Source of the DNA: Blautia luti
GTDB lineage: Bacteria; Bacillota; Clostridia; Lachnospirales; Lachnospiraceae
Assembly (NCBI RefSeq): GCF_033096465.1
Contig: NZ_AP028156.1
Span: forward strand, 491,501 to 555,500
Direction of reading: 5' to 3'
DNA: 64,000 nt
The position numbers were made by a program, and so were the translations under genes. Position 1 is the first letter of the stretch. Every line of letters starts with the position of its first letter. The notes under the pieces are model-generated. The model saw nothing but the letters and a program-made list of their open reading frames with translations, ran no database searches and was not told where the DNA came from. This document shows positions 64 through 16,070 of this stretch, piece after piece.

Positions 64-618
64 ATGGGAAAAATAAAAGTTACAGAATGTGGCGGAATTA
101 AAGGATTAAAAGTAGTAGAGCCAACAGTCTTCGGAGATGCAAGAGGCTACTTTATGGAAACTTATAACTACAATGATTTCAAAGAAGCAGGAATTGATGT
201 GGAATTCGTACAGGATAATCAGTCCAGCTCCCATAAAGGGGTTCTCCGTGGACTTCATTTCCAGATCAATTATCCGCAGGATAAACTGGTACGTGTAGTA
301 AACGGTGAGGTATTTGACGTTGCAGTGGACCTTCGTGAAGGATCTGAGACTTACGGCAAATGGTTCGGAGTTGTTCTCTCCGCAGAGAACAAGAAACAGT
401 TCTTTATTCCTAAGGGATTCGCACATGGATTCCTGGTACTTTCCGAACATGCGGAATTCGTTTACAAATGCTCTGATTTCTATCACCCGAACGATGAGGG
501 CGGACTGATCTGGAATGACCCGGATATCGGAGTAGAATGGCCGATCCCGGAGGGAATGGAATTAAGCTTCTCAGATAAAGATACCAAATGGGGAAGCTTC
601 AAGGATTACCGCAAATAG
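64..618 (+). CDS. rfbC: dTDP-4-dehydrorhamnose 3,5-epimerase
   Basis: This 184-residue cupin-fold enzyme inverts C3 and C5 of dTDP-4-keto-6-deoxyglucose on the way to dTDP-L-rhamnose in the cytoplasm. The RmlC signature is complete: GVLRGLHFQ with the catalytic-base His, the VFDVAVDLREGS strand with the paired Asp, and FIPKGFAHGFLVLSE in the barrel. The length is normal for the family. The ATG has an A/G-rich site (AAGAGGAAACG) just upstream. It is the first complete gene of the polysaccharide locus; the ABC permease follows after 12 bases, so the two are probably cotranscribed. Its presence implies rhamnose or a related 6-deoxysugar in the exported glycan. The other rml genes would lie to the left of the window. 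The 63 bases before it contain no gene I can name. Confidence 0.95.
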   Translation: MGKIKVTECGGIKGLKVVEPTVFGDARGYFMETYNYNDFKEAGIDVEFVQDNQSSSHKGVLRGLHFQINYPQDKLVRVVNGEVFDVAVDLREGSETYGKWFGVVLSAENKKQFFIPKGFAHGFLVLSEHAEFVYKCSDFYHPNDEGGLIWNDPDIGVEWPIPEGMELSFSDKDTKWGSFKDYRK

Positions 619-630
619 GAGAACGAGAGA

Positions 631-1446
631 TTGAAGACGATTTTTTCTTTACCCATGGACATTTACAAAAACAGACGGCTTGTGGCGAAGCTGGCGAAAA
701 ATGACTTCAAAACAAGATATGCAGGTTCGTATCTGGGAATCGTATGGGCATTTATCCAGCCTGTTATCACCATTCTGGTATACTGGTTTGTTTTCTCAGT
801 AGGATTCCGTTCAGGAACCGGTGATCTGGGAGTGCCTTTTGTCCTGTATCTGGTGGCAGGTATTGTACCCTGGTTCTTTTTCCAGGATGCCCTGATCGGC
901 GGAACCAATTCCATGCTGGAATATAATTATCTGGTAAAAAAGGTAGTATTCAACATCAGCGTGCTTCCGGTGGTCAAGATCATCTCTGCCATGTTTGTAC
1001 ATGTATTTTTCGTGCTGTTTACCATTATTCTGTATGCAGCGTATGGAAGAATGCCTGATATTTACTATCTGCAGCTGATCTATTACACAGGATGCGTGTT
1101 TATTCTGGTGCTGGGCTTATCCTACGCCACTAGTGCCATTGTAATCTTTTTCAGGGACCTGACACAGATCATCAATATTATACTTCAGGTAGGAGTGTGG
1201 CTTACACCGATCATGTGGATTGTGGAAACTTCTCCTCTTCAGGGACATCCGGTGATCATGAAGATCCTGAAACTGAATCCGATGTACTATATTGTTTCCG
1301 GATACAGAGATACGTTTCTTATGAAAACCTGGTTCTTCCAGCATGCGGGATGGACTGCTTATTTCTGGGTATTCACCATCCTGTGCTTCCTGTTTGGCAG
1401 CTGGGTATTTAAACGTCTGCGCATCCATTTTGCGGATGTATTATAA
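631..1446 (+). CDS. Polysaccharide ABC exporter, permease subunit (Wzm/TagG type)
   Basis: This 271-residue integral membrane protein is the transmembrane half of an ABC-2-type polysaccharide exporter. It has about six hydrophobic segments, an amphipathic N-terminus (KNRRLVAKLAKNDFKTRY) typical of Wzm/TagG, and the conserved C-terminal NPMYYIVSGYRDTFL motif. It should flip an undecaprenyl-linked glycan across the membrane with the ATPase encoded at 1527. The start is a TTG preceded by AGGAG at the end of rfbC; no ATG near it has a better site. The 80-base gap to the ATPase gene contains no obvious terminator. Family assignment is firm; the exact glycan (O-antigen-like polymer or teichoic-acid-like polymer) is inferred from the neighbours. 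Confidence 0.92.
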   Translation: MKTIFSLPMDIYKNRRLVAKLAKNDFKTRYAGSYLGIVWAFIQPVITILVYWFVFSVGFRSGTGDLGVPFVLYLVAGIVPWFFFQDALIGGTNSMLEYNYLVKKVVFNISVLPVVKIISAMFVHVFFVLFTIILYAAYGRMPDIYYLQLIYYTGCVFILVLGLSYATSAIVIFFRDLTQIINIILQVGVWLTPIMWIVETSPLQGHPVIMKILKLNPMYYIVSGYRDTFLMKTWFFQHAGWTAYFWVFTILCFLFGSWVFKRLRIHFADVL

Positions 1447-1526: not shown

Positions 1527-2798
1527 GTGGAAAACAAGAAAGTAATTCAGGTGAAAAATCTCACCAAAATGTATAAATTATATGATAAGCCTTCAGATCG
1601 TCTCAAAGAAGCTCTGGGGCTTACCAAAAAGAAACTTTATAAAGAGCATTATGCACTGCGTGATGTAAACTTCGATATTCAGGAAGGGGAATGCGTGGGT
1701 ATTATCGGAACCAATGGTTCCGGTAAATCCACGATCCTGAAGATCATCACCGGTGTTCTGACTCCTACCCAGGGAGAAGTGAAGGTAGACGGACGTATCT
1801 CTGCCCTGCTGGAGCTGGGAGCCGGATTTAATATGGAATATTCCGGCCTGGAGAATGTATACCTGAATGGTACCATGATCGGATTTTCCAAAGAGGAGAT
1901 CGATGCCAGACTGGACGATATCCTGGAATTCGCAGACATTGGAGATTTTATCCACCAGCCTGTTAAGACATATTCCAGCGGTATGTTCGTGCGTCTGGCT
2001 TTTGCTGTCGCTATCAATATTGATCCGGAGATCCTGGTGGTAGATGAGGCACTGTCTGTAGGAGACGTATTCTTCCAGGCCAAGTGCTACCATAAATTCG
2101 AAGAATTTAAGAAGCAGGGAAAGACCATCCTGTTCGTAAGCCATGATCTCAGCAGTGTATCCAAGTACTGCGACAGAGTTATCCTGCTGAACAAAGGTGT
2201 GAAGCTGGATGAAGGTTCTCCGAAACAGATGGTAGACCTGTACAAACAGCTTCTGGTAGGACAGGATCCTGTGAAACAGCAGGAGGCAGATAAAGAGAAA
2301 AAGGCAGCAGTACAGTCCGAAGGCACAGGCAATTTCCAGGCCAACCCCAACATGCTGGAGTATGGAAACCGCATGGCTGAGATCATTCATTTCGAAGTCC
2401 TTGATGACAGGGGAATGCTTTCCAATACCATCGAAAAAGGAACGGAGTTTAAGATCCGCATGAAGGTTCATTTCAATGAGGATATCCAGGAGCCGATCAT
2501 GGCGTATACCTTTAAGAATATTAAAGGAACGGAGATCACAGGAACCAACACCATGTTTGAGAAGGCACAGGTTGCCAGATCAGGTGCCGGTGATGAATGT
2601 ACAGTCACTTTCACTCAGAACATGGACCTCCAGGGAGGGGAATATCTGCTGTCCTTTGGCTGTACCGGTTACAAGGACGGGGATTTCACTGTGTTCCACA
2701 GACTTTATGATGCCTGCAATATTACAGTAGTATCCAGTAAGAATACAGTAGGCTTTTATGATATGAATTCCAGAATAGAAATTCAGTGTGAGGAATAA
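1527..2798 (+). CDS. Polysaccharide ABC exporter, ATPase with C-terminal glycan-binding-like domain (Wzt type)
   Basis: This 423-residue protein has an ABC ATPase domain at about residues 1-240: Walker A GTNGSGKST around residue 61-69, signature YSSGMFVRLAFA, Walker B ILVVDEALSVGD and the H-loop LFVSHD. A charged linker follows, then a beta-rich domain (about 270-423, starting near GNRMAEIIHFEVLDD) matching the Wzt C-terminal domain. In Wzt of E. coli O8/O9a this domain recognises the modified end of the finished chain; plain TagH ATPases lack it. The GTG start has a GGAAAGGAA site. It ends two bases before the methyltransferase-kinase gene, so production of the chain-end modifier and the chain-end reader appears coupled. 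Substrate recognition by this domain is inferred from the family. Confidence 0.93.
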   Translation: MENKKVIQVKNLTKMYKLYDKPSDRLKEALGLTKKKLYKEHYALRDVNFDIQEGECVGIIGTNGSGKSTILKIITGVLTPTQGEVKVDGRISALLELGAGFNMEYSGLENVYLNGTMIGFSKEEIDARLDDILEFADIGDFIHQPVKTYSSGMFVRLAFAVAINIDPEILVVDEALSVGDVFFQAKCYHKFEEFKKQGKTILFVSHDLSSVSKYCDRVILLNKGVKLDEGSPKQMVDLYKQLLVGQDPVKQQEADKEKKAAVQSEGTGNFQANPNMLEYGNRMAEIIHFEVLDDRGMLSNTIEKGTEFKIRMKVHFNEDIQEPIMAYTFKNIKGTEITGTNTMFEKAQVARSGAGDECTVTFTQNMDLQGGEYLLSFGCTGYKDGDFTVFHRLYDACNITVVSSKNTVGFYDMNSRIEIQCEE

Positions 2799-2800
2799 AT

Positions 2801-5011
2801 ATGGGAGAAAAAATAGGAAAAGTATTCCTGGATGATACCTTATATCCGGGACAGGATTTATACAGCGACGGTGTCATCGAGGATGAGCTGCTGGAGATCG
2901 CCAGGGATTATCACCCGGAGGAATTTAACCGCGTGATCCGGGAGAGGGAAAGCTGGCCCATTCTCTATCATTTTTCCCATATCAGGGAAAACATCTTAAG
3001 CTGGCTTCCTTTTACAGGGGAAGAAAAGGTGCTGGAGATCGGTTCCGGCTGTGGCGCTGTTACAGGTGCACTCTGCAGGAAGGCGAAAGAAGTGACCTGT
3101 ATTGAACTTTCCATGAAACGAAGCAGGATCAACGCCTACAGGCACAGAGATCAGGATAACCTGAAGATCCTTGTGGGAAATTTCCAGGAGATCGAAAAAA
3201 ACCTTACTGAGAAATATGATTATATTACACTGATCGGTGTATTTGAATACGGGGAGGCCTATATTCAGAGCCAGGATCCGTATGTGGATTTCCTGAAGAT
3301 CATTTCCAGACATCTGAAACCCGATGGAAAGATCGTGCTTGCCATTGAGAACCGCCTGGGACTGAAATACTGGGCAGGATGTACGGAAGATCATTTCGGA
3401 ACCTTATTCGAAGGGCTGGAAGGATATCCCAGAACCAGCGGTGTAAAGACTTTTACACAGAAGGAATTCAGGGGAATCTTACAGAAAGCAGGGGATTTAA
3501 AAGCTGCCTGGTATTATCCATTCCCGGATTACAAGTTCCCAATGACTATCTATTCCGATGAGCATCTGCCTGCCAGAGGTGAGCTGAACCGTACGGAATA
3601 CAATTTCGACAGATTCCGTCTGCAGCTGTTTCAGGAGTCACCGGTATATGACACTTTGCTGGAAAATGATCTCTATCCGCAGTTCGCCAATTCTTTCTTA
3701 CTTCTGATCGGGAAAGAACAGCCGGAACTGAAGACTGTTTATGCGAAATTCTCCAATGAGAGAGACCGCAGATTTGCCATCTGCACAGAGATCACCAGGG
3801 ATGAACAGGGCAGTCTGGGAGTAAAGAAACTTCCGGAAACAAAGGAAGCCACAGAACATATCCGCAGACTTTCCAGAATTTGTACAGAGCTGAAGAAATT
3901 ATATCAGAGTGCGGGAATCCAGGTAAATGAATGCAGAGACAACAGCAATACGGATGACAGTAAATGTGCGGCAGAGCTTGAATTCCTTAATGGGATCACC
4001 CTGGAAGATAAACTGGATACTCTTCTGAAAGAAGGCAGAACCGATGCAGTGGAGGAATTACTGTTTACCTATATTGAGAAAGTAAAACAGATCCATGAGA
4101 AAGAAAGTTTCCAGAAAACACCGGAATTTATCCAGGTATTCGGAGATGTGGATCTGAAAGAAGGACTGAAATGTGCCCCTGTTTCCAATATTGATTTCCT
4201 TCCTGCCAATATTATTCTGGAGGAAGAGAAGACCACAGTAATCGATTATGAGTGGACGTTCTTTTTCCCGATACCTTCCCAGTTTCTGGTTTACCGTCTC
4301 ATCCACTATTATCTGGAGAGCGATGGTAAACGTGAGAGCCTGAAAGACCTGGATTTCTATGGAAAAGCAGGGCTCACAGAGAAAGACTGCAGGGTATACG
4401 GGGAAATGGAAAAGAATTTCCAGCGCTATATACTGGGAAGCCACACAGCCATGCTCAGCCTCTATGACAGAATTTCCCCGGGCAAAGCAGACGCAGTGCA
4501 GTTTTATGAGGAAAAGAAGCTGGAAGCATTACAGAATCTGCAGATCTTCTGGGATGCAGGAAAGGATTTCTGTGAGGCGGATTCCGGGAAATATCCTGTG
4601 AGAAACCACAGGGTACAGGTGGAATTAAAGCTTCCTGCCAATACTGCGAAACTTCGTCTGGATCCCGGTGAACTGCGAAGCGGTGTGAAGATCCATAAAC
4701 TTCTCTGGGATAATAAAGTTCCGGCAGCATTTGCTACAGAAGGGTTCCGCCTGGAGGAAGACACACTTTACTTCGGCGGGGAAGATCCCCAGATCATTAT
4801 CACAGAGATTCCGGAAGGGACCTCTTCCCTGATGATCGATCTGGAATTCCTGGATGAGAAGAAAACAGGACAGAAATTCTGGAATGCCTACCGCGAGCAG
4901 GAAAGACAAAAAGGGCAGCTGATGGAAGAACTGAAGAGAAAAGAGAAGCTGGTCCGTACCGTAGAAAGCAGCAAAATGTGGAAAGCCTACAGACATGTAA
5001 AGAAGATCTGA
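2801..5011 (+). CDS. Methyltransferase + kinase-like protein with C-terminal coiled coil; candidate glycan chain terminator
   Basis: This 736-residue multidomain protein starts with a class I SAM methyltransferase (motif I VLEIGSGCGAVTG at about residues 78-90, acidic post-motif, then HLKPDGKIVLAIENR). The middle (about 310-520) resembles an aminoglycoside-phosphotransferase or kinase fold: an N-lobe-like YAKFSNERDRRF stretch, then DFLPANIIL and IDYEW in the places of the catalytic loop and metal-binding segment, although the usual HGD is replaced by NID. A beta-rich part follows, and the last 40 residues are charged and heptad-like (EQERQKGQLMEELKRKEKL). The order methyltransferase, kinase, coiled coil next to a Wzt with a C-terminal domain is that of WbdD-type terminators. 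The resemblance is by domain order and motifs only; the kinase could be inactive. Confidence 0.72.
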   Translation: MGEKIGKVFLDDTLYPGQDLYSDGVIEDELLEIARDYHPEEFNRVIRERESWPILYHFSHIRENILSWLPFTGEEKVLEIGSGCGAVTGALCRKAKEVTCIELSMKRSRINAYRHRDQDNLKILVGNFQEIEKNLTEKYDYITLIGVFEYGEAYIQSQDPYVDFLKIISRHLKPDGKIVLAIENRLGLKYWAGCTEDHFGTLFEGLEGYPRTSGVKTFTQKEFRGILQKAGDLKAAWYYPFPDYKFPMTIYSDEHLPARGELNRTEYNFDRFRLQLFQESPVYDTLLENDLYPQFANSFLLLIGKEQPELKTVYAKFSNERDRRFAICTEITRDEQGSLGVKKLPETKEATEHIRRLSRICTELKKLYQSAGIQVNECRDNSNTDDSKCAAELEFLNGITLEDKLDTLLKEGRTDAVEELLFTYIEKVKQIHEKESFQKTPEFIQVFGDVDLKEGLKCAPVSNIDFLPANIILEEEKTTVIDYEWTFFFPIPSQFLVYRLIHYYLESDGKRESLKDLDFYGKAGLTEKDCRVYGEMEKNFQRYILGSHTAMLSLYDRISPGKADAVQFYEEKKLEALQNLQIFWDAGKDFCEADSGKYPVRNHRVQVELKLPANTAKLRLDPGELRSGVKIHKLLWDNKVPAAFATEGFRLEEDTLYFGGEDPQIIITEIPEGTSSLMIDLEFLDEKKTGQKFWNAYREQERQKGQLMEELKRKEKLVRTVESSKMWKAYRHVKKI

Positions 5012-5064
5012 GAGATATAAATGTAAAAGGTACGAACGTACAGGAGTATAAGAAGGGTGTAACT

Positions 5065-7587
5065 ATGGCGAAAATACTTTGGAGTGTGGATGAAAAGAAA
5101 TATAACGATAAAAATGCACATACTCTGATCCTTACAGGCTGGGCTGCAAGCACAGAGAAGAAACCATGCAGCTTTATCCTGCAGGGGAATGGAAATGTAA
5201 ATGAAAATATTTCCATTCCTGAGCCTTTCCGTTTCGACAGAGCAGACGTGGCCGGAAATTTCCCGGAACTTGCAGGGATCACAGATGCAGGCTTCACTGT
5301 GGAGATCCCCCAGGTGCTGGATCTGGCAGGAGAATACGGAAATCTGGAGTTTTTTGTAACAGACGGAGAAGAACAGGAGAAGATCTGGGGGGCATCTGCG
5401 GAAGAAATAAGAAATTTCTGCGCAGACTGCCTGATGGAATACCGGATCGACCGGGAACAGATCCTGGGCAAATCTACACTGATGGTGGATGGCTGGGTGC
5501 TGGATCAGAGAGGTACAGATGAGGTACTGGTAGAGGATAAGAATGGTATCCCTGTGAAATGTACCATTACCAGAGGCCGCAGGCCGGACGTGGAAGAAGA
5601 ACGTAAGATCCAGGCAGAAGGAAACCGTGAGATCGGTTTTTCCATTTCCGTGGATCTGCAGGAAACAGGGAACCGTGACCTGTACATCCGTTTCCAGGGA
5701 CCGGAGACACAGAAGACGTATGTGGTGGATGTCCGCAGGCTGAAAGCTGAGAAATCTGTGTTACGCCAGAGAATGAATCTGCTGGCCTGGGAGAATAAAG
5801 ATAAGAATCTGGAATATATCAGGGAAAAAGGCCTGGGAGAGTTTGTCCGTTATGTGGGAACCTATCAGCCGGAAGGTGTTTCCCAGGACTATGAAGAATG
5901 GCTGAAGGATCATGCAGCAGGAAAGAAAGAACTGAAAAGACAGAAAGCGGCAGTATTTTCCAGCAGTCCTCTCATCAGTATCGTGATCCCTCTGTATAAC
6001 ACGCCACTGGAATATCTGAAAGAAGTGATCGATTCTGTGATCGCCCAGACTTACAGTAACTGGCAGCTCTGTCTGGCAGACGGCAGTGAGGGCGATGAGA
6101 TCAGGGAACTCCTGAGAAAGAAATATAAAAAGGAAATCCGAATTTCTTATAAAAAACTCACGGAAAACAAAGGGATTTCAGAGAATACCAATGCAGCCAT
6201 CAAGCAGGCGATGGGGGATTATATCATGCTCTGCGACCACGATGATGTGGTGGCACCGGATGCTTTGTTTCATATTGTGAAGGCCATCACCGAGCAGAAA
6301 GCAGATGTGATCTACACAGATGAAGATAAAGTCAGCATGGACGGAAAGCATTATTTCGAACCTAATTTCAAACCGGATTTCAATCTGTTCAGATTAAGGG
6401 AGAACAATTACATCTGCCATATCTTCGTAGTGAAAAGGGAAATCCTGGAGCAGACAGGAACCTTCCGCTCAGAGTATGACGGAGCCCAGGACTTTGACCT
6501 GATCCTGCGTTGCTGTGAGAAGGCAGAATGCATCGTTCATGTGCCGAGAGTTCTTTATCACTGGAGAAGCCATATGAATTCCACAGCTGCCAACCCGGAG
6601 AGCAAGCGCTATGCATTTGAGGCAGGGAAAAGAGCAGTGGAAGCCCATTATGAAAGAATGGGAATCCCAGCTGAAGTGGAACTGACAGACCGTCCCGGAT
6701 GGTACAGAAGTCACGTGAAGATAGAGGGAGAGCCTATGATCTCCATCATTATTCCCAATAAAGACCATATGGAAGACCTGGAACTGTGTGTTTCTTCCAT
6801 CGAAGAAAGATCCACCTGGAAGAATTATGAAATCCTGGTTGTGGAGAATAACAGCGAAAAGAAAGAAACATTTGGATATTATGAGGAACTTCAGAACCGT
6901 TATGACAACGTAAGAGTCCTTACCTGGAAAAAAGAATTCAACTATTCTTCCATCAATAATTTCGCAGTAAAAGAGGCAAGAGGCCAATACCTTCTGTTTC
7001 TGAACAATGACGTGGAGGTCATCACCCACTCCTGGATGGAGGAAATGCTTCAGATCTGTCAGCAGGAAGGTGTGGGAGCTGTAGGAGCCAAGCTTTATTA
7101 TCCGGATGACACCATCCAGCATGCAGGTGTGGTCATGGGCCTTGGCGGGATCGCAGGGCATATCATGTGCAAGGCACCGCGGGAAGAGATCGGTTATATG
7201 GGGCGTATGGTATGCGTCCAGGAGATCAGTGCAGTCACTGCGGCATGCATGATGGTAAAGACTTCTGTATTTAAGAAAGCAGGGGGCTTTGATGAAGAGC
7301 TGAGAGTAGCGTTCAATGATATCGACCTCTGCATGCAGATCAGGCATATAGGAGAGAAGATCGTCTTTACGCCATATGCAGAACTGTATCATTATGAGTC
7401 CAAATCCAGAGGACTGGAAGATACACCGGAGAAGCAGCTTCGTTTCTCGAAAGAAGTGAAGTGCTTCCGCAGAAAATGGGACAGAGAGCTGCTGAAGGGA
7501 GATCCTTATTACAGCCCGAACCTGTCACTGAAAGAAGGAGACTGCTCCTTGCGAAAAGAAGAAAGAAATGGGGAGTATCATGCCTAA
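5065..7587 (+). CDS. Tandem-domain GT2 glycosyltransferase (first of three paralogues)
   Basis: This is an 840-residue cytoplasmic glycosyltransferase with two GT-A/GT2 domains. The N-terminal 300 residues are a beta-rich, non-catalytic region. The first GT2 domain (about 302-540) has ISIVIPLYN, the DxD-like CDHDDVVAP, YTDEDK and GAQDFDLILR. The second (about 557-830) has ISIIIPNKD, LFLNNDVEVI and FNDIDLCMQIR. Tandem GT2 proteins commonly extend heteropolysaccharides, one domain per linkage. I place the start at the ATG at 5065, after AAGGGTG, rather than an in-frame ATG 87 bases earlier that overlaps the preceding gene. The stop overlaps the start of the next paralogue by 8 bases. Donor and linkage cannot be read from sequence. 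Confidence 0.88.
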   Translation: MAKILWSVDEKKYNDKNAHTLILTGWAASTEKKPCSFILQGNGNVNENISIPEPFRFDRADVAGNFPELAGITDAGFTVEIPQVLDLAGEYGNLEFFVTDGEEQEKIWGASAEEIRNFCADCLMEYRIDREQILGKSTLMVDGWVLDQRGTDEVLVEDKNGIPVKCTITRGRRPDVEEERKIQAEGNREIGFSISVDLQETGNRDLYIRFQGPETQKTYVVDVRRLKAEKSVLRQRMNLLAWENKDKNLEYIREKGLGEFVRYVGTYQPEGVSQDYEEWLKDHAAGKKELKRQKAAVFSSSPLISIVIPLYNTPLEYLKEVIDSVIAQTYSNWQLCLADGSEGDEIRELLRKKYKKEIRISYKKLTENKGISENTNAAIKQAMGDYIMLCDHDDVVAPDALFHIVKAITEQKADVIYTDEDKVSMDGKHYFEPNFKPDFNLFRLRENNYICHIFVVKREILEQTGTFRSEYDGAQDFDLILRCCEKAECIVHVPRVLYHWRSHMNSTAANPESKRYAFEAGKRAVEAHYERMGIPAEVELTDRPGWYRSHVKIEGEPMISIIIPNKDHMEDLELCVSSIEERSTWKNYEILVVENNSEKKETFGYYEELQNRYDNVRVLTWKKEFNYSSINNFAVKEARGQYLLFLNNDVEVITHSWMEEMLQICQQEGVGAVGAKLYYPDDTIQHAGVVMGLGGIAGHIMCKAPREEIGYMGRMVCVQEISAVTAACMMVKTSVFKKAGGFDEELRVAFNDIDLCMQIRHIGEKIVFTPYAELYHYESKSRGLEDTPEKQLRFSKEVKCFRRKWDRELLKGDPYYSPNLSLKEGDCSLRKEERNGEYHA

Positions 7588-10024
7588 GGAAATATTTGAA
7601 GTAACAAGAGAAAGATTTCATCTGTTAGACCGGAATCAGTATATCGTACAGGGAACCTGGCCGAAAGAAGCGAAGATGGAAGCCTGCCTGGATGACCGGA
7701 AGCTGAAGACCACAGTGAAAAAGGTGGAGATGGTCAGTGCACTGGAGCGTTTTAAGGATCCTGATCTTATGCGCGGCGAACAGATCACTGCCGTACTGGA
7801 AATGCCGGACAGCCTGAAAGAGTTTAAGAAACTGGTGATCTATGCGGACCAGCCGGATAAAAGAACTGTATGGTTTTCCATTTCCGCCAGTGAGCTGGAG
7901 AAGAAAAGAGACAAACCCCAGGTGTATTTCGAGGAGGAAAAAGTTCAGCAGGGAATGGTCCGTTTAAGAGGCTGGGCCATTGCTCCGACTTCTGTGGAGA
8001 TCCGTATCTTCGATGAGAATAAGAAACCTCTGGCAGCAGAGATCCAGAGAACAGACCGTGTGGATGTAGACCAGCTTTATGAAGAGCTGGAAAACCCTGA
8101 GAAAACCGGTTTCTTTACAGAGGTGACCAATGTCTCCGGCAAATGTCTGTATGTGGTTTTCAAAGCAGGAGATAAAAAGACAATAAAGATCGTTCCCCTC
8201 AGAAAGATCGAAGTCCTTGCGAAAAAAGTAGATAAATATGCGAAAAAAGGAATCCGCTACTGGAAATCCCAGGGCGGTGCTGCATTGGCAGGAAAGATCA
8301 TCTCCAAGGTAAAGACTGCCTCTACCAGAGAGATTCCTTATCAGAAGTGGATTACCCGCCATCTTCCGGGAAAAGCAGAGCTGGAGAAACAGAGAAGGAC
8401 GAAACTGAAATACAGTCCGAAGATCTCCATCGTGGTACCTCTTTATAAAACTCCGGAGAAATATCTCAGAAGACTGGTGGAATCGGTACAGGAACAGACC
8501 TACTCCAACTGGGAACTGTGTCTGTCTGACGGAAGCGGCGCAGATTCTCCTGTTGCAGGAATCCTGAAACAGCTGGCTGCCTCAGACAAAAGGATCAAAG
8601 TGATCCCTCATGACAGTGCCCTTCAGATCTCAGAGAATACAAACAGCGCCATCGAAGCTGCCACTGGTGATTTTATTGCTTTCGCAGATCATGATGACGA
8701 GCTTACTCCTCATGCATTGTTTGAATGTGTGAAGGCACTGAACGATCATTCGGGGACACTGGTGGTTTATTCAGATGAAGACAAGATGTCCATGGACGGA
8801 CATAAATTCTTCCAGCCGCATTTCAAGCCGGACTATAACCCGGATCTTCTTTGCACAGTAAACTATATCTGTCATTTATTTGTAGTGTCACGTAAGGTCA
8901 TTGACCAGGTGGGAATGCTGCGTAAAGAATTTGACGGAGCCCAGGATTATGATTTCATTTTCCGTTGTGTGGAAGCTGTGAAGGATGAGGAAATCTATCA
9001 TGTGCCGAAGATCTTGTATCACTGGCGCTGCCACGAAGATTCCACTGCCGAGAACCCGGAGAGCAAGACGTATGCATTTGAGGCAGGAAGAAGAGCAGTG
9101 CAGGAGCACTATAACAGAACCGGCATTCAGGCGAAGGTTCTGGACGGAGAATTCCTGGGACTGTACAGAACAGAATTTATCCGTGATCATAATCCGCTGA
9201 TCTCCATTATCATTCCCAATAAAGATCATATTGACGATCTGAAACGCTGCATGGACTCCATAGACCAGAAGTCCACGTATCAGAATTATGAATATGTGAT
9301 CGTGGAGAATAACAGTACAGATCCTGCAACTTTTGAATATTATAAAAAGCTGGAAGCAGAGAATGAGAAAGTTCATGTGGTTTACTGGGATGGAGTATTT
9401 AACTATTCTGCCATCAATAATTACGGAGCTTCTTTTGCCAGAGGTGAATATTTCCTGCTCCTGAATAATGATACGGAGATCATCAACCCCAACTGTCTGG
9501 AGGAACTGCTGGGATACTGCATGCGAAGTGATGTAGGTGCAGTTGGCGCCAGATTATATTACGAAGACGATACTATCCAGCATGCCGGTGTAGTAATCGG
9601 CTTCGGCGGAATTGCCGGACACTGTTTCGTACTTCAGCCCAGAGGAACCACAGGCTACTGCCACAGGATCATCTGTGCCCAGGATTACAGCGCAGTCACT
9701 GCAGCCTGCATGATGGTGAAACGTACTGCTTTCGAAGAAGTGGGCGGACTTTCCGAGGAACTGCAGGTAGCCTTTAATGACATTGATTTCTGCATGAAAT
9801 TAAGAAAAGCAGGATATCTGATCGTATACAATCCATATGCGGAACTGTATCATTACGAATCCAAATCCAGAGGTCTGGAAGATACGCCGGAAAAGGTGGC
9901 AAGGTTTAACCGTGAGATATCTGTCTTCGAGAAAAGATGGCCGGATATCCTCAGAAACGGTGATCCTTATTACAATCCGAACCTTACATTGAAGAGCCAG
10001 GACTTCTCCCTGAAGCGGATTTAG
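7580..10024 (+). CDS. Tandem-domain GT2 glycosyltransferase (second paralogue)
   Basis: This 814-residue protein has the same plan as its upstream neighbour: a beta-rich N-terminal region of about 275 residues, GT2 domain one (ISIVVPLYK, FADHDDELTP, YSDEDK, GAQDYDFIFR) and GT2 domain two (ISIIIPNKD, LLLNNDTEII, FNDIDFCMKLR). The ATG at 7580 lies behind GGGGAG; an in-frame ATG at 7568 is further upstream and its own site is weaker. The overlap with the upstream gene suggests translational coupling. The two proteins align along almost their whole length, including the C-terminal stretch ESKSRGLEDTPEK, so they are probably products of a duplication that then diverged in acceptor or donor. It should add consecutive sugars of the repeat unit. 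Confidence 0.88.
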   Translation: MPKEIFEVTRERFHLLDRNQYIVQGTWPKEAKMEACLDDRKLKTTVKKVEMVSALERFKDPDLMRGEQITAVLEMPDSLKEFKKLVIYADQPDKRTVWFSISASELEKKRDKPQVYFEEEKVQQGMVRLRGWAIAPTSVEIRIFDENKKPLAAEIQRTDRVDVDQLYEELENPEKTGFFTEVTNVSGKCLYVVFKAGDKKTIKIVPLRKIEVLAKKVDKYAKKGIRYWKSQGGAALAGKIISKVKTASTREIPYQKWITRHLPGKAELEKQRRTKLKYSPKISIVVPLYKTPEKYLRRLVESVQEQTYSNWELCLSDGSGADSPVAGILKQLAASDKRIKVIPHDSALQISENTNSAIEAATGDFIAFADHDDELTPHALFECVKALNDHSGTLVVYSDEDKMSMDGHKFFQPHFKPDYNPDLLCTVNYICHLFVVSRKVIDQVGMLRKEFDGAQDYDFIFRCVEAVKDEEIYHVPKILYHWRCHEDSTAENPESKTYAFEAGRRAVQEHYNRTGIQAKVLDGEFLGLYRTEFIRDHNPLISIIIPNKDHIDDLKRCMDSIDQKSTYQNYEYVIVENNSTDPATFEYYKKLEAENEKVHVVYWDGVFNYSAINNYGASFARGEYFLLLNNDTEIINPNCLEELLGYCMRSDVGAVGARLYYEDDTIQHAGVVIGFGGIAGHCFVLQPRGTTGYCHRIICAQDYSAVTAACMMVKRTAFEEVGGLSEELQVAFNDIDFCMKLRKAGYLIVYNPYAELYHYESKSRGLEDTPEKVARFNREISVFEKRWPDILRNGDPYYNPNLTLKSQDFSLKRI

Positions 10025-10034
10025 GAGGACGTGC

Positions 10035-12518
10035 ATGAAAAAGGGTATGAAATTAAATAAAGAATCTCAAACAAGGCTGCTGCTTCTGGCAGCTTTGTTT
10101 GTCAGCTGCCTTTTTATTTTTCGAAGTTATCTGTTCGGGGATTCGGTGCTGGTGTTTGATGATGTAGGGGGAGATACCTGGCAGCAGTATACCATGCATT
10201 ATGCTTCTATTGTGAACCATCTGCGGGCGGGGAATTTTTCCCTGTGGGATTTCACCAATGGAATGGGAACCAATATGTTTTCCCTGAGTCTTTTTGACCC
10301 GTCCCTGATCCTTCTGTACCTCATCGGCGTGGTGCTGGGACCGGCACATATGCTGTTCTATCTGGTCTGGCTGCAGGTTCTGAAAGTTCTGGCAGCAGGC
10401 TGGGTGTTTTATCTGTTCCTGTCTGAGTTTACATACAGCAGACAGGCGAAATTCCTGGCTGCTTTTGCCTATGGCATGAACGGATATCTGATGGTATGGG
10501 GACAGCATTACCAGTTTGGAATGGTAACCATCTATCTGCCGCTGATCCTTCTGTTCGAAGAGAAGTTCCTGAGAGGGGAAAAGGGAAAAGGATTTTTCCC
10601 TGTAGCTGTATTTTTAAGCGGGATCTACAGTGTGTATTTCTCCTATATGAGCCTGATCGCAGCAGGATTTTACCTGCTGTTTCGGATCGCCATGGAGGAA
10701 AAGTTAAGCTGGAAACAGCGTATGGGTAAATTTTTCGGCGGCTGTGGACAGATGCTTCTGGGGATCGGCATGAGTCTGGCTGCGTTTCTGCCTACAGCAG
10801 CGACACTGATGAATTCTTCCAGGATCACTTCCGGAGAAAACGGGATCGGTGCCCTGTTGAAGGCATGTTTTTCCCGCTACAGTATCGCTTATTATAAATG
10901 TCTGCTGATCCGTCCTTTCTCCACTAATCTGGAAAACCTTCAGACACTTGGAGACGGGAAATATGAGGGACTGGTGAATTATTACGAGGATCCGGTGTTG
11001 TTTTGCTCTACCCTGGCTGTGCTGGCGGCAGTGCAGTTCGTCTTTGTATTATGGAGAAGCCAGGAGAAAAAGCGTGTGAAGATTTCTCTTTATGCAGCCT
11101 GTGCCCTGACAGTGCTTCTGGTGCTTCTGCCGCTGGGAGGGACTGCGTTTAATGCCTTTACAGATCCTACCAACCGTTACACTTATATCCTGATGGTGCT
11201 GCTATTGCTGGTGACTGCCTGGATGTGGGATTATCTCAGGGCAGGAGGCAGGATCAGTATTCTAGCGCTGGCTGTTACAGCGGTTCTGATGATGAGGGCT
11301 TATATGACAGGATATGAGCAGAGCATTTTTAAAGAATACAGGATCAACGCGCTGATCCTGGCAGTCACCGGCTGTGTGATGTTACTCTGCATCCTCTGCC
11401 TGGGATTTGTGAAAAATCAGTCCCCGCGCAGTCTTAAAGTGAGAAAGGTGGCAACAGGGTTTCTGGCAGCAGCGCTTCTGGTGAATGTGATATCTGAAGG
11501 CGGGATCACCTATGTAGATCGTGTGGTTTTGAAAAAGACAGACGCACCTGCAGATCAGATTCCGGAGCAGATGGAGGTTTATGCAGCGGCTGCCCAGGCA
11601 GAAGATTCTGAGGAAAAGAGCAGAGCTGTTTTTTATAAGCCGCAGACCTATTTCACAGAGCTGTACAGACAGGATCTTCAGGATGCACTGAATTATCTGA
11701 AAGAGACAGATCCGGAATTTTACAGAGTGGAGAAAGATTATTCTTCTGCAACCTATACCATGGATTCCCTGGCACAGGGATACAGAGGAATCAGCACGTA
11801 TAATTCCGTATTGAACGGGAATCTGAAAGAATTCGTAGATGTATGTTATCCGGAACTTTATTATATGGATCAGAACCGTTATGCGTTCTGGCCCAATGCA
11901 GAGGATAACTTCCTGGCGGCATTTACCGGTGTCCGCTACCTGCTTTCCAAGAGCGGGGATCTGGACAGCAGTAAATATGAGCTGATGCAGCAGTTTGGAG
12001 GGATTTACCTGTACAGGAATGTGCAGGAGGCGGCCACTGCCAGATTTTATGTAAATACCATTTCTGAGGATTCACTGAAAGAACTCTGTAATGAAGAAAA
12101 CAGGGAAACACTTCTGGAGAATTCCCTGGCTCTGGAGGATGGCAGGGAGATAGAAGATCTGTCAGATCTGGAGGAAATTTCAGATGCACAGAAGAAGTCC
12201 TCCGTGGTGCTGAATGCACCGGAGAAAGATTCCTGCATTACAGGAACGGTATCTGCCCGGGCAGATGGCTATGTACTGTGCATGATCCCTTATGAAAACG
12301 GATGGACTGTTTCCGTGGACGGAGAAGAAGTGGAAACAGAGAAGGGGGATCTGGGATTTCTGGCATTCCCTGTTAAAGAGGGAGAACATCAGCTGACTAT
12401 TACCTTCCATGCACCAGGCCTGAAAGCCGGTGCCGGAGCGAGCATTGTGTGCTGGATCATTTATTTCGGCATGCTTGGATATGGACGCAGAAGAAAGAGA
12501 AAGGCAGCGGTAAGCTGA
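10035..12518 (+). CDS. YfhO-family multi-pass membrane protein
   Basis: This 827-residue protein has about a dozen hydrophobic segments in its first 500 residues, then a large soluble part (about 520-790) and a last transmembrane helix near the C-terminus (AGASIVCWIIYFGMLGYG). The N-terminal DVGGDTWQQY motif after the first membrane segment is typical of YfhO and of GT-C-fold glycosyltransferases, where acidic residues in the first external loop bind the lipid-linked donor. YfhO homologues in Bacillus and Listeria decorate lipoteichoic or wall glycans with sugars outside the membrane. It starts 10 bases after the second GT2 gene behind TTAGGAGGA, so it ends this operon. A role in glycosylating the exported polymer is inferred. 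Confidence 0.82.
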   Translation: MKKGMKLNKESQTRLLLLAALFVSCLFIFRSYLFGDSVLVFDDVGGDTWQQYTMHYASIVNHLRAGNFSLWDFTNGMGTNMFSLSLFDPSLILLYLIGVVLGPAHMLFYLVWLQVLKVLAAGWVFYLFLSEFTYSRQAKFLAAFAYGMNGYLMVWGQHYQFGMVTIYLPLILLFEEKFLRGEKGKGFFPVAVFLSGIYSVYFSYMSLIAAGFYLLFRIAMEEKLSWKQRMGKFFGGCGQMLLGIGMSLAAFLPTAATLMNSSRITSGENGIGALLKACFSRYSIAYYKCLLIRPFSTNLENLQTLGDGKYEGLVNYYEDPVLFCSTLAVLAAVQFVFVLWRSQEKKRVKISLYAACALTVLLVLLPLGGTAFNAFTDPTNRYTYILMVLLLLVTAWMWDYLRAGGRISILALAVTAVLMMRAYMTGYEQSIFKEYRINALILAVTGCVMLLCILCLGFVKNQSPRSLKVRKVATGFLAAALLVNVISEGGITYVDRVVLKKTDAPADQIPEQMEVYAAAAQAEDSEEKSRAVFYKPQTYFTELYRQDLQDALNYLKETDPEFYRVEKDYSSATYTMDSLAQGYRGISTYNSVLNGNLKEFVDVCYPELYYMDQNRYAFWPNAEDNFLAAFTGVRYLLSKSGDLDSSKYELMQQFGGIYLYRNVQEAATARFYVNTISEDSLKELCNEENRETLLENSLALEDGREIEDLSDLEEISDAQKKSSVVLNAPEKDSCITGTVSARADGYVLCMIPYENGWTVSVDGEEVETEKGDLGFLAFPVKEGEHQLTITFHAPGLKAGAGASIVCWIIYFGMLGYGRRRKRKAAVS

Positions 12519-12684: not shown

Positions 12685-13965
12685 TTATGATTTTATCACC
12701 CGGATCATCAGAAACAGGAAGAACAGCAGGAATGCTGCGCCTATAGCTCCGATGATATAGTACGGTGCAGTTGTGTGGGAAACGGAGAAGTTCTGGGCTG
12801 CTTCCATATTCTTCTGGCCTGTTGCTGCAGCGTCATCTGTCTGTTGCTCTACATTCTCCAGGATTGCAGTACCTACCGGTGTACCTCCGAAATAGTACTG
12901 TCTGGTGATCTGGCCATCTGAAGAACTGTCCTCTGTGGTAAGGGCATCTGCTCCGGTTCCGGCAGGAACGATCACTGTACCGCCGGAAAGACGGTTGAAG
13001 TCATCATCCGGAAGTGTCAGAGGAGTGAAATTATCAAATCCGTAATTCAGAAGTGCAATAGCCTCGTCATCTGTCACGCCGGATGCACCGTTTAAGACGA
13101 CACATACCAGCTTCATGTTGTTCTTGGAAGCTTCACATACCAGAGTACTTCCGGATGCTTCTGTGTAGCCTTCTTTTCCTCCGATACATGGCTCATAGTA
13201 GCTGTCACTTGAACTGTTAATCATGGTGAAATTATTGGTCAGTACACGGTCACCGCCGGAAACATTGGTGGCAGGGATGGTATAGGAAGTGGTTTGGGCA
13301 ATGGTACGGAAAGTATCGTTGGCCATGGCAGCTTCCATGATCAGTGCCATATCGTGTGCGGTAGTATGCTGATTCTCATCTGGAAGACCGGTAGGATTGG
13401 TAAAGACTGTATTGGTACACCCAAGCTCCTGGGCACGCGTATTCATGGCTGCTACGAAATCCTCTACAGAACCGCTGATATGCTCGGCTACCTGCAGGGC
13501 AATATCATTGGCGGATGCGACCATAATGGCGTAGAGACACTGTTCCATGGTGAATACTTCATCCAGCTGTGCGGAGATATTGGCTCCTCCGTCTGTTACG
13601 CCGGATACGCCGGTAGCGGTCATGGTGACCTGGTCATCCAGACTGGAATTCTCCAGAGCCATCAGACAGGTCATAACCTTTACTGCACTGGCAGGATATA
13701 AGGCTTGGTCTGCGTTCTTGGAATAGAGAACTGTATTGGTGGAGGTTTCCATTACAATGGCAGCAGTGGAAGAAATGTCCGAAGCCTGAGGCCATCCTTG
13801 GATCCCGTTGGTAGTTACGATAGAAGGATCTGCTGTCTGTACTGCTGTGTCGGCAGCTGTATCTGCTGTTTTTTCAGCTGCACGGACCGGGAGCTGGGTG
13901 AATAAAGTGGCAGTACCAAGTCCCAGCGCCAGAAGAGCCGCGCTGAATCGTTTCATTTTTTTCAT
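12685..13965 (-). CDS. D-alanyl-D-alanine carboxypeptidase (DacA/DacF type, peptidase S11)
   Basis: This 426-residue penicillin-binding protein trims the terminal D-Ala of peptidoglycan pentapeptides outside the membrane. It has a Sec signal peptide (KRFSAALLALGLGTATLF, cleavage probably near VRAA) and the catalytic motifs SAVK (Ser93, Lys96) and SAN (151-153). The third motif reads KEG (264-266) where most relatives have KTG. A C-terminal hydrophobic helix (IGAIGAAFLLFFLFLMI) replaces the amphipathic anchor of PBP5. The start has an AGGAG site. It faces the polysaccharide genes on the opposite strand and is separated from both sides by a terminator and a divergent promoter, so it is an independent unit. 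The KEG variant may alter beta-lactam affinity, which is a guess. Confidence 0.92.
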   Translation of the reverse strand: MKKMKRFSAALLALGLGTATLFTQLPVRAAEKTADTAADTAVQTADPSIVTTNGIQGWPQASDISSTAAIVMETSTNTVLYSKNADQALYPASAVKVMTCLMALENSSLDDQVTMTATGVSGVTDGGANISAQLDEVFTMEQCLYAIMVASANDIALQVAEHISGSVEDFVAAMNTRAQELGCTNTVFTNPTGLPDENQHTTAHDMALIMEAAMANDTFRTIAQTTSYTIPATNVSGGDRVLTNNFTMINSSSDSYYEPCIGGKEGYTEASGSTLVCEASKNNMKLVCVVLNGASGVTDDEAIALLNYGFDNFTPLTLPDDDFNRLSGGTVIVPAGTGADALTTEDSSSDGQITRQYYFGGTPVGTAILENVEQQTDDAAATGQKNMEAAQNFSVSHTTAPYYIIGAIGAAFLLFFLFLMIRVIKS

Positions 13966-14120
13966 GGTATTAAATACTCCTGTTTTCAGTCAGCCGATGT
14001 TAAGATCTCTGCTGACGATAAATATTATCATATATATGTATCATGTATGCAGATGCCGGATAATTGCATTTTTTTTGTCCAGGCATCAGCTTTAACATTA
14101 TATCATATATTACAGCTTTC

Positions 14121-14149
14121 TTGCAAAAAATATCATACAATGTTAAAAT
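14121..14149 (+). promoter_or_regulatory. Sigma-A-type promoter for the third tandem GT2 gene
   Basis: TTGCAA, a 17-base spacer and TAAAAT, with TGT just before the -10 (extended -10). It sits 35 bases before the start at 14184, in the gap behind the divergent carboxypeptidase gene, and therefore starts a second polysaccharide transcript. Confidence 0.7.
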
Positions 14150-14183
14150 AAAATATCTTTACATGGAAATTCGAGGTTACAAT

Positions 14184-16070
14184 ATGAGTAAACAGCAATC
14201 ATCAGGGAGAAACATCCAGTGGACCAGAGTGTTAAAGAAGCTTTCTCCCTATACGATCCAGAAAGGATTCCGATATCTGAAACATTACGGACCGAAGGAA
14301 TTCTGGATCCGGCTTCATGAGCGCTTCGAGCCGGAAGAGGTACCCTATGGCCCATGGTATGACGCCTATGTACCGGATGAGAAAACACTGGAGAAACAAC
14401 GGACACATCAGTTTGCCTATGCACCCCAGATCAGTGTGGCAGTTCCTGCTTATCAGACCCCTACAGAGTTTCTGAAACAGATGATAGACAGTCTGATGGA
14501 ACAGACTTATTCCAACTGGGAGCTCTGCATTGCCAATGCAAGCCCGGATAATGAAGAAATGCAGCGCGTCCTCGCAGATTATGCAGCCAGAGATCCCAGA
14601 GTGCGTTTCTGCAATCTGAAAGAGAATCTGGGGATCGCGGAGAACACCAACAGAGCATTTGACATGGCGAAAGGGGAATTCCTGGGACTTCTGGATCATG
14701 ATGACCTTCTGGCACCCAATGCATTGTATGAGATCGTGAATATCCTGCAGGATCATCCTGAGGCGGACGCTGTCTACACAGACGAGGATAAAGTTACCAC
14801 AGAGCTGGACGAGCATTTCCAGCCTCATCTGAAACCGGACTTTAATCTGGATCTTCTCCGCTCCAACAATTATATCTGCCATTTCTTCGTGGCGCGCAGA
14901 TCAGTAGTGGAGCAGGTGGGCGGATTCAGAAAAGAATTCGACGGAGCCCAGGATTATGATTTTATTTTCCGCTGTACAGAAGAAGCCAGAGAAGTGGTGC
15001 ATGTACCGGAGATCCTCTATCACTGGAGAACACATAAGGCATCCACGGCAGATAACCCGGCAAGCAAGATGTACGCCTTCGAAGCAGGGAAAAGAGCCAT
15101 CGAAGCACATCTGGAGCGTACGAAGACACCGGGAACTGTGAGCCATACCCAGGATCTTGGCTTTTATCGTGTGCAGTATCCGGTGCAGGGTCAGCCCCTT
15201 GTTTCTGTGATCATCCCCAATAAAGATGAGAAAGAGACTTTGGAAACCTGCCTGGAATCTTTGAAAAAACATACGAACTATAAGAATTTTGAGATCATCA
15301 TCGTAGAGAATAACAGCACAACAGATGAGATTTTCCAGTATTATAAAGAGCTGGCGAAGGATCCGCAGATCCACCTTCTCCGCTGGAAAAAAGAATTCAA
15401 TTATTCTGCCATCAACAATTTCGGAGCAGCCCATGCGCAAGGAGAATACCTGCTGTTTCTGAACAATGATATCAAGGTGATCACACCGGAGTGGATGGAT
15501 GAGATGCTTGGCGTGTGCCAGCGCCCGGAAGTAGGAGCTGTAGGCGTGAAGCTGATCTATCCGGACAATACCATCCAACATGCCGGTTGTGTAGTGGGAA
15601 TGGGCGGTATCGCAGGGCATATGTTTGTAGATATGCCTGCAGAGCGCACCGGTTATCTCCACAAGGCATCCCTTCTTCAGGATATGAGTGCTGTAACAGC
15701 AGCCTGTATGATGATGAAGAAAGAAGCCTTTGACAGGGCTGGGGGATTTACCCAGGAGCTTGCAGTGGCATTTAATGACGTGGATCTCTGTCTGAAAGTA
15801 CGGAAAGCAGGCTATCTGATCGTTTATGATCCCTATGCGAAGCTTTACCATATGGAATCCAAGACAAGAGGGGCAGAGGACAGCAAAGAGAAGGTGCGCC
15901 GTTTCCAGACGGAGATCGAATATATGCGCTGCCACTGGCTGAACATCCTGAAGAACGGGGATCCATATTATAACAAAAATCTTTCCCTTACCAAGTGGAA
16001 CTATTCCCTGAAGCCTCTTCCGGGAATGGAGACGAAAGAGAAAAAGACAGCAGGAGGAGACCATGCCTGA
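14184..16070 (+). CDS. Tandem-domain GT2 glycosyltransferase (third paralogue, short N-terminus)
   Basis: This 628-residue protein lacks the long beta-rich N-terminal region of the two paralogues at 5065 and 7580; GT2 domain one starts already near residue 80 (ISVAVPAYQ, LLDHDDLLAP, YTDEDK, GAQDYDFIFR). Domain two starts near residue 339 (VSVIIPNKD, LFLNNDIKVI, FNDVDLCLKVR). The ATG at 14184 is chosen because it follows GAGGT and lies downstream of the extended -10 promoter; the frame is open for 40 codons upstream, but that stretch would include the promoter. Its stop overlaps the next glycosyltransferase by 8 bases. It probably adds two sugars of the same polymer as the other tandem GT2 proteins. 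Confidence 0.88.
   Translation: MSKQQSSGRNIQWTRVLKKLSPYTIQKGFRYLKHYGPKEFWIRLHERFEPEEVPYGPWYDAYVPDEKTLEKQRTHQFAYAPQISVAVPAYQTPTEFLKQMIDSLMEQTYSNWELCIANASPDNEEMQRVLADYAARDPRVRFCNLKENLGIAENTNRAFDMAKGEFLGLLDHDDLLAPNALYEIVNILQDHPEADAVYTDEDKVTTELDEHFQPHLKPDFNLDLLRSNNYICHFFVARRSVVEQVGGFRKEFDGAQDYDFIFRCTEEAREVVHVPEILYHWRTHKASTADNPASKMYAFEAGKRAIEAHLERTKTPGTVSHTQDLGFYRVQYPVQGQPLVSVIIPNKDEKETLETCLESLKKHTNYKNFEIIIVENNSTTDEIFQYYKELAKDPQIHLLRWKKEFNYSAINNFGAAHAQGEYLLFLNNDIKVITPEWMDEMLGVCQRPEVGAVGVKLIYPDNTIQHAGCVVGMGGIAGHMFVDMPAERTGYLHKASLLQDMSAVTAACMMMKKEAFDRAGGFTQELAVAFNDVDLCLKVRKAGYLIVYDPYAKLYHMESKTRGAEDSKEKVRRFQTEIEYMRCHWLNILKNGDPYYNKNLSLTKWNYSLKPLPGMETKEKKTAGGDHA

Follow-up and report, generated by a model that had tools for sequence, protein, structure and literature searches.

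The window analysed here, a stretch of 64,000 nucleotides of Blautia luti DNA, lies within a 3.74 Mb single-contig genome, and the nearest named related loci are those of other Blautia, such as Blautia schinkii (L002, 73% identity). On the forward strand between positions 64 and 12518, the genes follow one another in the order rmlC, wzm, wzt, P0001, a pair of glycosyltransferases that both have two GT2 domains, and a YfhO protein (Table 1). Beyond the opposite-strand gene that comes next there are further glycosyltransferases, together with a polyprenyl-phosphate sugar transferase and an LCP protein. As rmlC is present in the cluster and rmlB and rmlD were found elsewhere in the genome, the host probably synthesises dTDP-rhamnose. 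The ATG at 5065 is perhaps the true start of the first of the two adjacent glycosyltransferases.

Table 1. Features of the locus (positions within the window; residue numbers refer to the protein named)
Feature	Position	Strand	Evidence
rmlC, dTDP-4-dehydrorhamnose 3,5-epimerase	64..618	+	TIGR01221, E 5.3e-77, over cut-off
Wzm, ABC-2 permease	631..1446	+	PF01061, E 1e-10
Wzt, ABC ATPase with C-terminal Wzt_C	1527..2798	+	ABC_tran, E 1.1e-24; PF14524; PDB 8dku
Wzt_C domain, putative chain-end reader, residues 277-413	2355..2765	+	PF14524, E 9.1e-45
P0001, methyltransferase-kinase-beta-coil protein, predicted chain terminator	2801..5011	+	Pfam, alignment, AlphaFold model
P0001 methyltransferase domain, residues 1-306	2801..3718	+	
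P0001 kinase domain, about residues 310-577	3728..4531	+	
P0001 kinase active-site motifs NIDFLPAN (463-470) and DYEW (482-485)	4187..4255	+	invariant residues, 63/63 loci
P0001 beta-rich domain, residues 579-683, possibly carbohydrate-binding	4535..4849	+	model secondary structure
P0001 helix 686-722 (short coil) and terminal helix 725-735	4856..5005	+	model
Glycosyltransferase, two GT2 domains	4978..7587	+	PF00535, E 2.8e-49, two stretches
Glycosyltransferase, two GT2 domains	7568..10024	+	PF00535, E 1.5e-42, two stretches
YfhO-family membrane protein, possible side-chain glycosyltransferase	10035..12518	+	PF09586, E 5.5e-64
Opposite-strand gene	12685..13965	-	
Third glycosyltransferase with two GT2 domains	14064..16070	+	home-made GT2 profiles
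Polyprenyl-phosphate sugar-1-phosphate transferase, possible chain initiator	17128..18531	+	TIGR03023, E 5.4e-151, over cut-off
LCP-family protein, possible wall ligase (pathway membership inferred)	18547..19989	+	PF03816, E 6.3e-30

The ORFs of Wzt (423 residues, GTG start) and P0001 (736 residues, ATG start) are both intact and are separated by two bases. The initial annotation had described the former as an ABC ATPase with an extra beta-rich C-terminal domain, and this was borne out, as the ABC domain is followed by a Wzt_C domain scoring 152.6 bits against a cut-off of 30.4. The top PDB match of Wzt, covering residues 7-404, was 8dku (E 1.3e-84), which we take to be from Aquifex; with residues 277-423 alone it was 2r5o (E 1e-7), presumably the O9a Wzt domain, and 8dku followed at E 4.9e-4. 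The Wzt_C of the window is thus alike, by sequence match, to solved Wzt_C structures which we assume to come from Gram-negative systems.

For P0001, a methyltransferase, a kinase-like part and a coiled coil had been proposed, and all three were recovered by Pfam or in an AlphaFold model (mean pLDDT 90.3), but the beta-rich domain between kinase and coil had been overlooked and the coil amounts to a single helix of about 37 residues. Methyltransf_12 matches residues 78-178 (E 2.4e-9) and a structural search assigns the methyltransferase a class I fold. No Pfam kinase match was found in P0001 at E 0.01 or better; the second domain, when modelled alone, does match kinases, so that structure prediction, the check that had been suggested, came out in favour of a kinase. 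One listing of 50 structural matches of this model is mostly of the APH type. The 50 matches of a Foldseek search also include JAK entries, and their TM-scores are low (0.32-0.51 by query), which counts against the explanation that we favour below.

We had also considered that the coil might be clearly shorter than in Gram-negative relatives, an idea that found no support from a crude helix measure (medians of 39 for the Lachnospiraceae type, 47 for bridging proteins and 43 for the Pseudomonas type). A profile of the beta-rich domain finds a single match among 121 Pseudomonas-type proteins and another among 120 bridging ones, so that homology of this domain to the carbohydrate-binding module (CBM) of the O7 enzyme described below is not supported by profile search.

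The kinase active site and the O7 terminator

Conservation was assessed in 63 loci, comprising the window, 22 related loci and 40 hand-picked from better matches, which is not a random sample. The residues D465, N470, D482, E484, W485, R499, R321 and T329 are invariant in all 63, and K343 is kept in 62; that K343 is replaced by H or R in two aligned gammaproteobacterial enzymes counts against our explanation. The initial annotation had noted NID in place of HGD, which we locate at residues 463-465, and had suspected that the kinase may be dead or changed. We see no support for a dead kinase, as the catalytic aspartate and the metal-site residues never vary in the 63 loci and the lack of the histidine seems common to the family. 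At the position of the usual HxD histidine the 63 loci carry D (36), N (26) or V (1), and 60 listed motif matches of bridging proteins (intermediate sequences from several phyla, 120 listed of 381 found) have F, Y, L or A. The motif D-x4-N ... D-x-E-W/F/Y without the histidine occurs in 116 of the 120 listed bridging proteins and in none of the 120 after one shuffle each. Absent from all 63 loci and from the 60 listed motif matches, the histidine looks like something this family does without, rather than something lost by decay.

The closest characterised enzyme to P0001 is ORF6, the terminator of Klebsiella pneumoniae O7. According to excerpts of a study of the O4 and O7 antigens (JBC 2024, PMC11231755), ORF6, deposited under GenBank MN173773.1, is built of a methyltransferase, a kinase that resembles AmiN and carries no annotation, an Ig-like CBM, a coiled coil and a pair of GT2 modules. 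On a test acceptor it adds phosphate, and in part methyl, at O-3 of the rhamnose that ends the chain, and it loses kinase activity upon the exchange D441A. In the same excerpts its kinase is called quite different from that of WbdD, CBMs are said to be unreported in other terminators, and the orthologues named on the basis of sequence are from alpha- and gammaproteobacteria, cyanobacteria and the archaeon Methanoculleus, with no Firmicutes found among them (PMC11231755).

The register was taken from the Pseudomonas asturiensis protein P0250, a stand-in for ORF6, whose own sequence is outside the alignment. P0250 has six SAM-site residues at exactly the ORF6 numbers (Y28, Y66, G91, G93, E112, Y158), as have 86 of 120 listed relatives, and P0001, aligned through P0250, has identical residues at all six. 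The catalytic aspartate, 441 in ORF6 and 443 in P0250, aligns to D465 of P0001; among the 86 in-register relatives, none has the motif aspartate at exactly 441 (range 431-450), which weighs against our explanation. A relative of 649 residues is encoded on a Citrobacter braakii plasmid in the order rmlB, A, C, D, IS630 transposase, wzm, wzt with Wzt_C, the relative itself, and glycosyltransferases. It matches by BLASTP at E 5e-43, with 32% identity over 374 columns that are mainly methyltransferase; its kinase was not matched by the kinase profile and has E for D482, two observations that also count against us.

Module arrangement and pairing with one class of Wzt_C

Of the 63 loci, 39 have methyltransferase and kinase in one protein and 10 have them split; in another 10 a kinase-GT2 fusion accompanies a separate methyltransferase, in 3 all three modules are joined, and one locus is truncated at the edge of its contig. 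L001 and L024-L032 do not enter these counts, as they overlap the window or L033-L041; L056 is placed with the split loci, although an unrecognised part may lie in its kinase ORF of 961 residues. We argue from these fusions that methyltransferase, kinase and GT2 act in one step. Two loci, L007 and L008, were considered as a methyltransferase-only, O8-like version and rejected, as the kinase there is fused to the next glycosyltransferase.

In 11 of the 63 loci the only Wzt near the enzyme is a short one that lacks Wzt_C, and in a further 4 no Wzt is present in the stretch examined. Ten of the 11 form a divergent group (30-35% identity) that includes Eubacterium plexicaudatum, and in 5 of its 10 genomes, which may be incomplete, no Wzt_C match is present. 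The enzyme thus occurs in genomes without a Wzt_C match, so that the enzyme family as a whole does not require a Wzt_C reader. In the one member of this group that was aligned (L012), two of the six SAM-site residues are missing (P22; a gap).

The pairing was counted in 200 Lachnospiraceae genera, one genome each. Kinases were scored with profile A3 at E below 1e-10, dropping weaker matches (the only ones in G005, G095, G145 and G163), the second parts of split matches, and 7 Wzt_C rows below the Pfam cut-off; 105 of the 200 genera have the kinase. Wzt_C domains were divided into a high class (133 bits and more) and a low class (121 and less) by a threshold set after the gap in the scores had been seen. 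The high class occurs in 100 of the 200 genera, and 99 of these 100 genomes have the kinase, the sole exception (G170) having its Wzt_C within 300 bases of a contig start. A kinase is also present in 6 of the 100 genomes without high-class Wzt_C, which counts against our explanation (Fisher p 3e-48 for the pairing, phylogeny being ignored). The kinase lies 0-6 kb downstream of the high-class Wzt_C in 95 of 100, and of the 36 low-class domains over the cut-off none has a methyltransferase or kinase match 0-6 kb downstream; one of them, of 121 bits in G023, has a kinase 2.1 kb away on its other side. Twenty genomes with weaker Wzt_C only, G023 not among them, yielded no kinase.

In a phylum-wide set, 11 of 398 genomes match, 4 of them Lachnospiraceae out of 5 Lachnospiraceae sampled, which indicates that the system is concentrated in this family. 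The module is real and is widespread in the Lachnospiraceae genera examined, and the cap-and-read logic first suggested for this locus has gained support from the almost perfect co-occurrence of kinase and high-class Wzt_C, as well as from the match to 2r5o.

Proposed chain termination and its alternatives

We think it quite probable that P0001 is a chain terminator that caps a glycan with methyl-phosphate, and that the cap is read by Wzt_C before export through Wzm/Wzt and fixation to the wall, probably by an LCP protein. The GT2-GT2 enzymes encoded next to P0001 would polymerise a surface glycan containing rhamnose, the sugar that we infer, and its non-reducing terminal residue would be phosphorylated by the kinase, at O-3 if the analogy with K. 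pneumoniae O7 holds. Methylation of this phosphate would stop the neighbouring two-domain GT2 polymerase, the capped end would be recognised by the Wzt_C of the adjacent exporter, and finished chains would be exported and attached. The LCP step is the one against which the gene map speaks, as the LCP gene is set apart from the cluster by the opposite-strand gene. As an account of growth, end modification, recognition, export and attachment, this is the most economical way to join the observed domains, folds, conserved residues, co-occurrence and fusions. We lean, if slightly, towards the wider view that about half of the Lachnospiraceae genera cap a rhamnose-type envelope glycan with methyl-phosphate, the cap serving as an export ticket for the matching Wzt_C.

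P0001 might instead decorate internal or side-chain sugars with (methyl-)phosphate without ending the chain, as no product is known for it and some of its relatives adjoin a Wzt without Wzt_C. We regard this as unlikely in view of the kinase-GT2 fusions in 13 of the 63 loci, the near-perfect pairing of the kinase with one Wzt_C class, and the assignment of O7 ORF6 as a terminator in excerpts of PMC11231755. It is similarly improbable that, on a chain that does carry a cap, Wzt_C recognises the rhamnan backbone instead, the gene linkage reflecting operon inheritance only; this reading shares the cap with ours, so that the two overlap and their likelihoods are not meant to be added up. It draws on the lineages that have the enzyme without a Wzt_C match and on a co-occurrence test that ignores phylogeny, and has to contend with the contrast in position between the two Wzt_C classes (0/36 against 95/100), to which the G023 domain, with its kinase on the other side, is the low-class exception. 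That the kinase is inactive or has a regulatory role, with capping left to the methyltransferase as in E. coli O8, we consider very unlikely: the replacement of the HxD histidine would suit it, but the unvarying D465, N470, D482, E484, W485 and R499, the near-constant K343, and the frequency of the histidine-less motif in the bridging proteins against shuffled sequences do not.

A further alternative is that P0001 is a true homologue of WbdD in both kinase and methyltransferase and works as the E. coli O9a enzyme does. In excerpts of PMC3482155, the WbdD kinase is likened to eukaryotic kinases, the coiled coil lies after it in the C-terminal region 460-708, and the modified end is described as essential for recognition by the carbohydrate-binding module of the transporter; the phosphate-site residues of the WbdD methyltransferase are R203, H132 and H133. 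P0001 is like WbdD in joining kinase and methyltransferase in one protein next to a Wzt with a C-terminal domain, in its cap logic, in the order methyltransferase-kinase-helix, in the logic of the gene neighbourhood and in its class I methyltransferase fold. Unlike the long coil region of WbdD, the model has the helices 686-722 and 725-735 only. No WbdD-named entry appeared among the PDB profile matches with the whole protein and the kinase (best 60 of 139, and 12, the best of the 12 being JAK1 at E 0.26) or among 50 rows of each of three structural listings, an absence that is no proof. With an APH-like kinase model, and the O7 terminator as the nearest characterised enzyme, the initial description of P0001 as WbdD-like does not hold in the strict sense, and true homology to WbdD, with action as in O9a, seems highly improbable.

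To our knowledge, length control of ABC-exported wall glycans in Gram-positives is largely open, and Lachnospiraceae are common in the gut. If P0001 does terminate chains in this way, it would be the earliest case of methyl-phosphate termination in a wall glycan of Gram-positives; the polymer would go on to an LCP ligase, and its cap would be detectable on abundant gut bacteria. The proposal names an enzyme, points to D465 as a catalytic residue and predicts the chemical nature of the end group. It would also widen the range of a terminator for which there is experimental evidence in K. pneumoniae and which has been followed by sequence into proteobacteria, cyanobacteria and one archaeon.

Comparison with known capping systems

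The combination had been thought undescribed. This is too broad for caps as such, which have been proposed for a Geobacillus S-layer glycan and for lactococcal rhamnan, whereas for a methyl-phosphate terminator of a Gram-positive wall glycan our literature search, with most subscription journals outside it, found no description among the papers listed, and no paper on WbdD in Firmicutes. In Geobacillus stearothermophilus, according to excerpts of PMC2943079, WsaE and Wzm/Wzt produce a polyrhamnose with a 2-O-methyl rhamnose cap that Wzt is predicted to recognise. That system is Gram-positive and resembles ours in polymer, ABC export and end modification, but its cap has no phosphate, no kinase domain is named in WsaE in these excerpts, and the glycan goes to an S-layer protein (PMC2943079). 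For the wall rhamnan of Lactococcus lactis, an end modification is proposed in excerpts of PMC5596347 to couple termination and export. Here the likeness is that of a Gram-positive wall polymer attached by LCP proteins; unlike in the window, the ends were deduced to be Glc or GlcNAc, and the words Wzt and methyltransferase are absent from the main text available (PMC5596347). The main text of a review of rhamnose wall polysaccharides has neither Wzt nor termination; the glucorhamnan of R. gnavus is given in part of a review as 1,2- and 1,3-linked rhamnose, and it is tempting to regard it as a candidate product of such a cluster.

The likeness to O7 ORF6 goes further. P0001 has the methyltransferase, the AmiN/APH-like kinase and, after these, a beta-type domain followed by a helix or coil, its neighbours are rml, wzm and wzt, and SAM site and catalytic aspartate are in register through P0250. 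ORF6 differs in being fused to its own GT2-GT2 polymerase, where the window has separate glycosyltransferase genes, in having an extended coiled coil (excerpts of PMC11231755) in place of a 37-residue helix, and in serving a Gram-negative O antigen, whereas the window is Gram-positive with an LCP gene near. The module is thus best seen as an O7-type methyltransferase-kinase terminator in a Gram-positive form, with one particular Wzt_C class as its partner.

Wzt_C in the divergent group

In a divergent group of ten loci (L009-L012, L016-L019, L021, L022), the methyltransferase-kinase gene adjoins a short Wzt that lacks Wzt_C, the putative reader of the capped glycan end, and a genome-level search found no Wzt_C match in 5 of the 10 genomes. 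Four others, G599 (L012), G601 (L017), G602 (L018) and G603 (L019), carry 9 to 12 matches each, so that one strain may perhaps export many different glycans via Wzt.

A possible side chain

The transaminase and glycosyltransferase encoded just upstream of the window, together with two putative ATP-grasp proteins and the window's membrane protein YfhO, suggest that its glycan receives an amino-sugar side chain, attached outside the membrane. The glycan cluster is itself broken by a minus-strand gene.

Features of the window, its flank and related loci
Feature	Location	Strand	Remark
D-Ala-D-Ala carboxypeptidase-like gene	window 12685-13965	-	resemblance judged by eye
WecE-type dTDP-4-amino-4,6-dideoxygalactose transaminase	L074:15817-16947		directly upstream of window; NF008687, 638 bits
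PgfS/ArnC-like glycosyltransferase	L074:14871-15824		precedes transaminase gene
Two proteins, read by us as ATP-grasp	L074:11670-14128		before transaminase
Methyltransferase-kinase protein, non-Lachnospiraceae	L079:5109-9776		GT2 domains in same protein
Methyltransferase-kinase protein, non-Lachnospiraceae	L078:6200-7998		truncated by contig end
Methyltransferase-kinase relative (terminator)	L084:7980-9929		Citrobacter braakii plasmid pF217-3

Relatives outside the Lachnospiraceae

Plasmid pF217-3, typed as conjugative, bears an O-antigen-like locus (rml-wzm-wzt-terminator-GT), whose kinase aligns E464 with the metal-site Asp of the others. In both L079 and L078, rmlC-wzm-wzt (with Wzt_C) lies upstream of the methyltransferase-kinase gene, and their proteins link the Blautia form with the Pseudomonas form.
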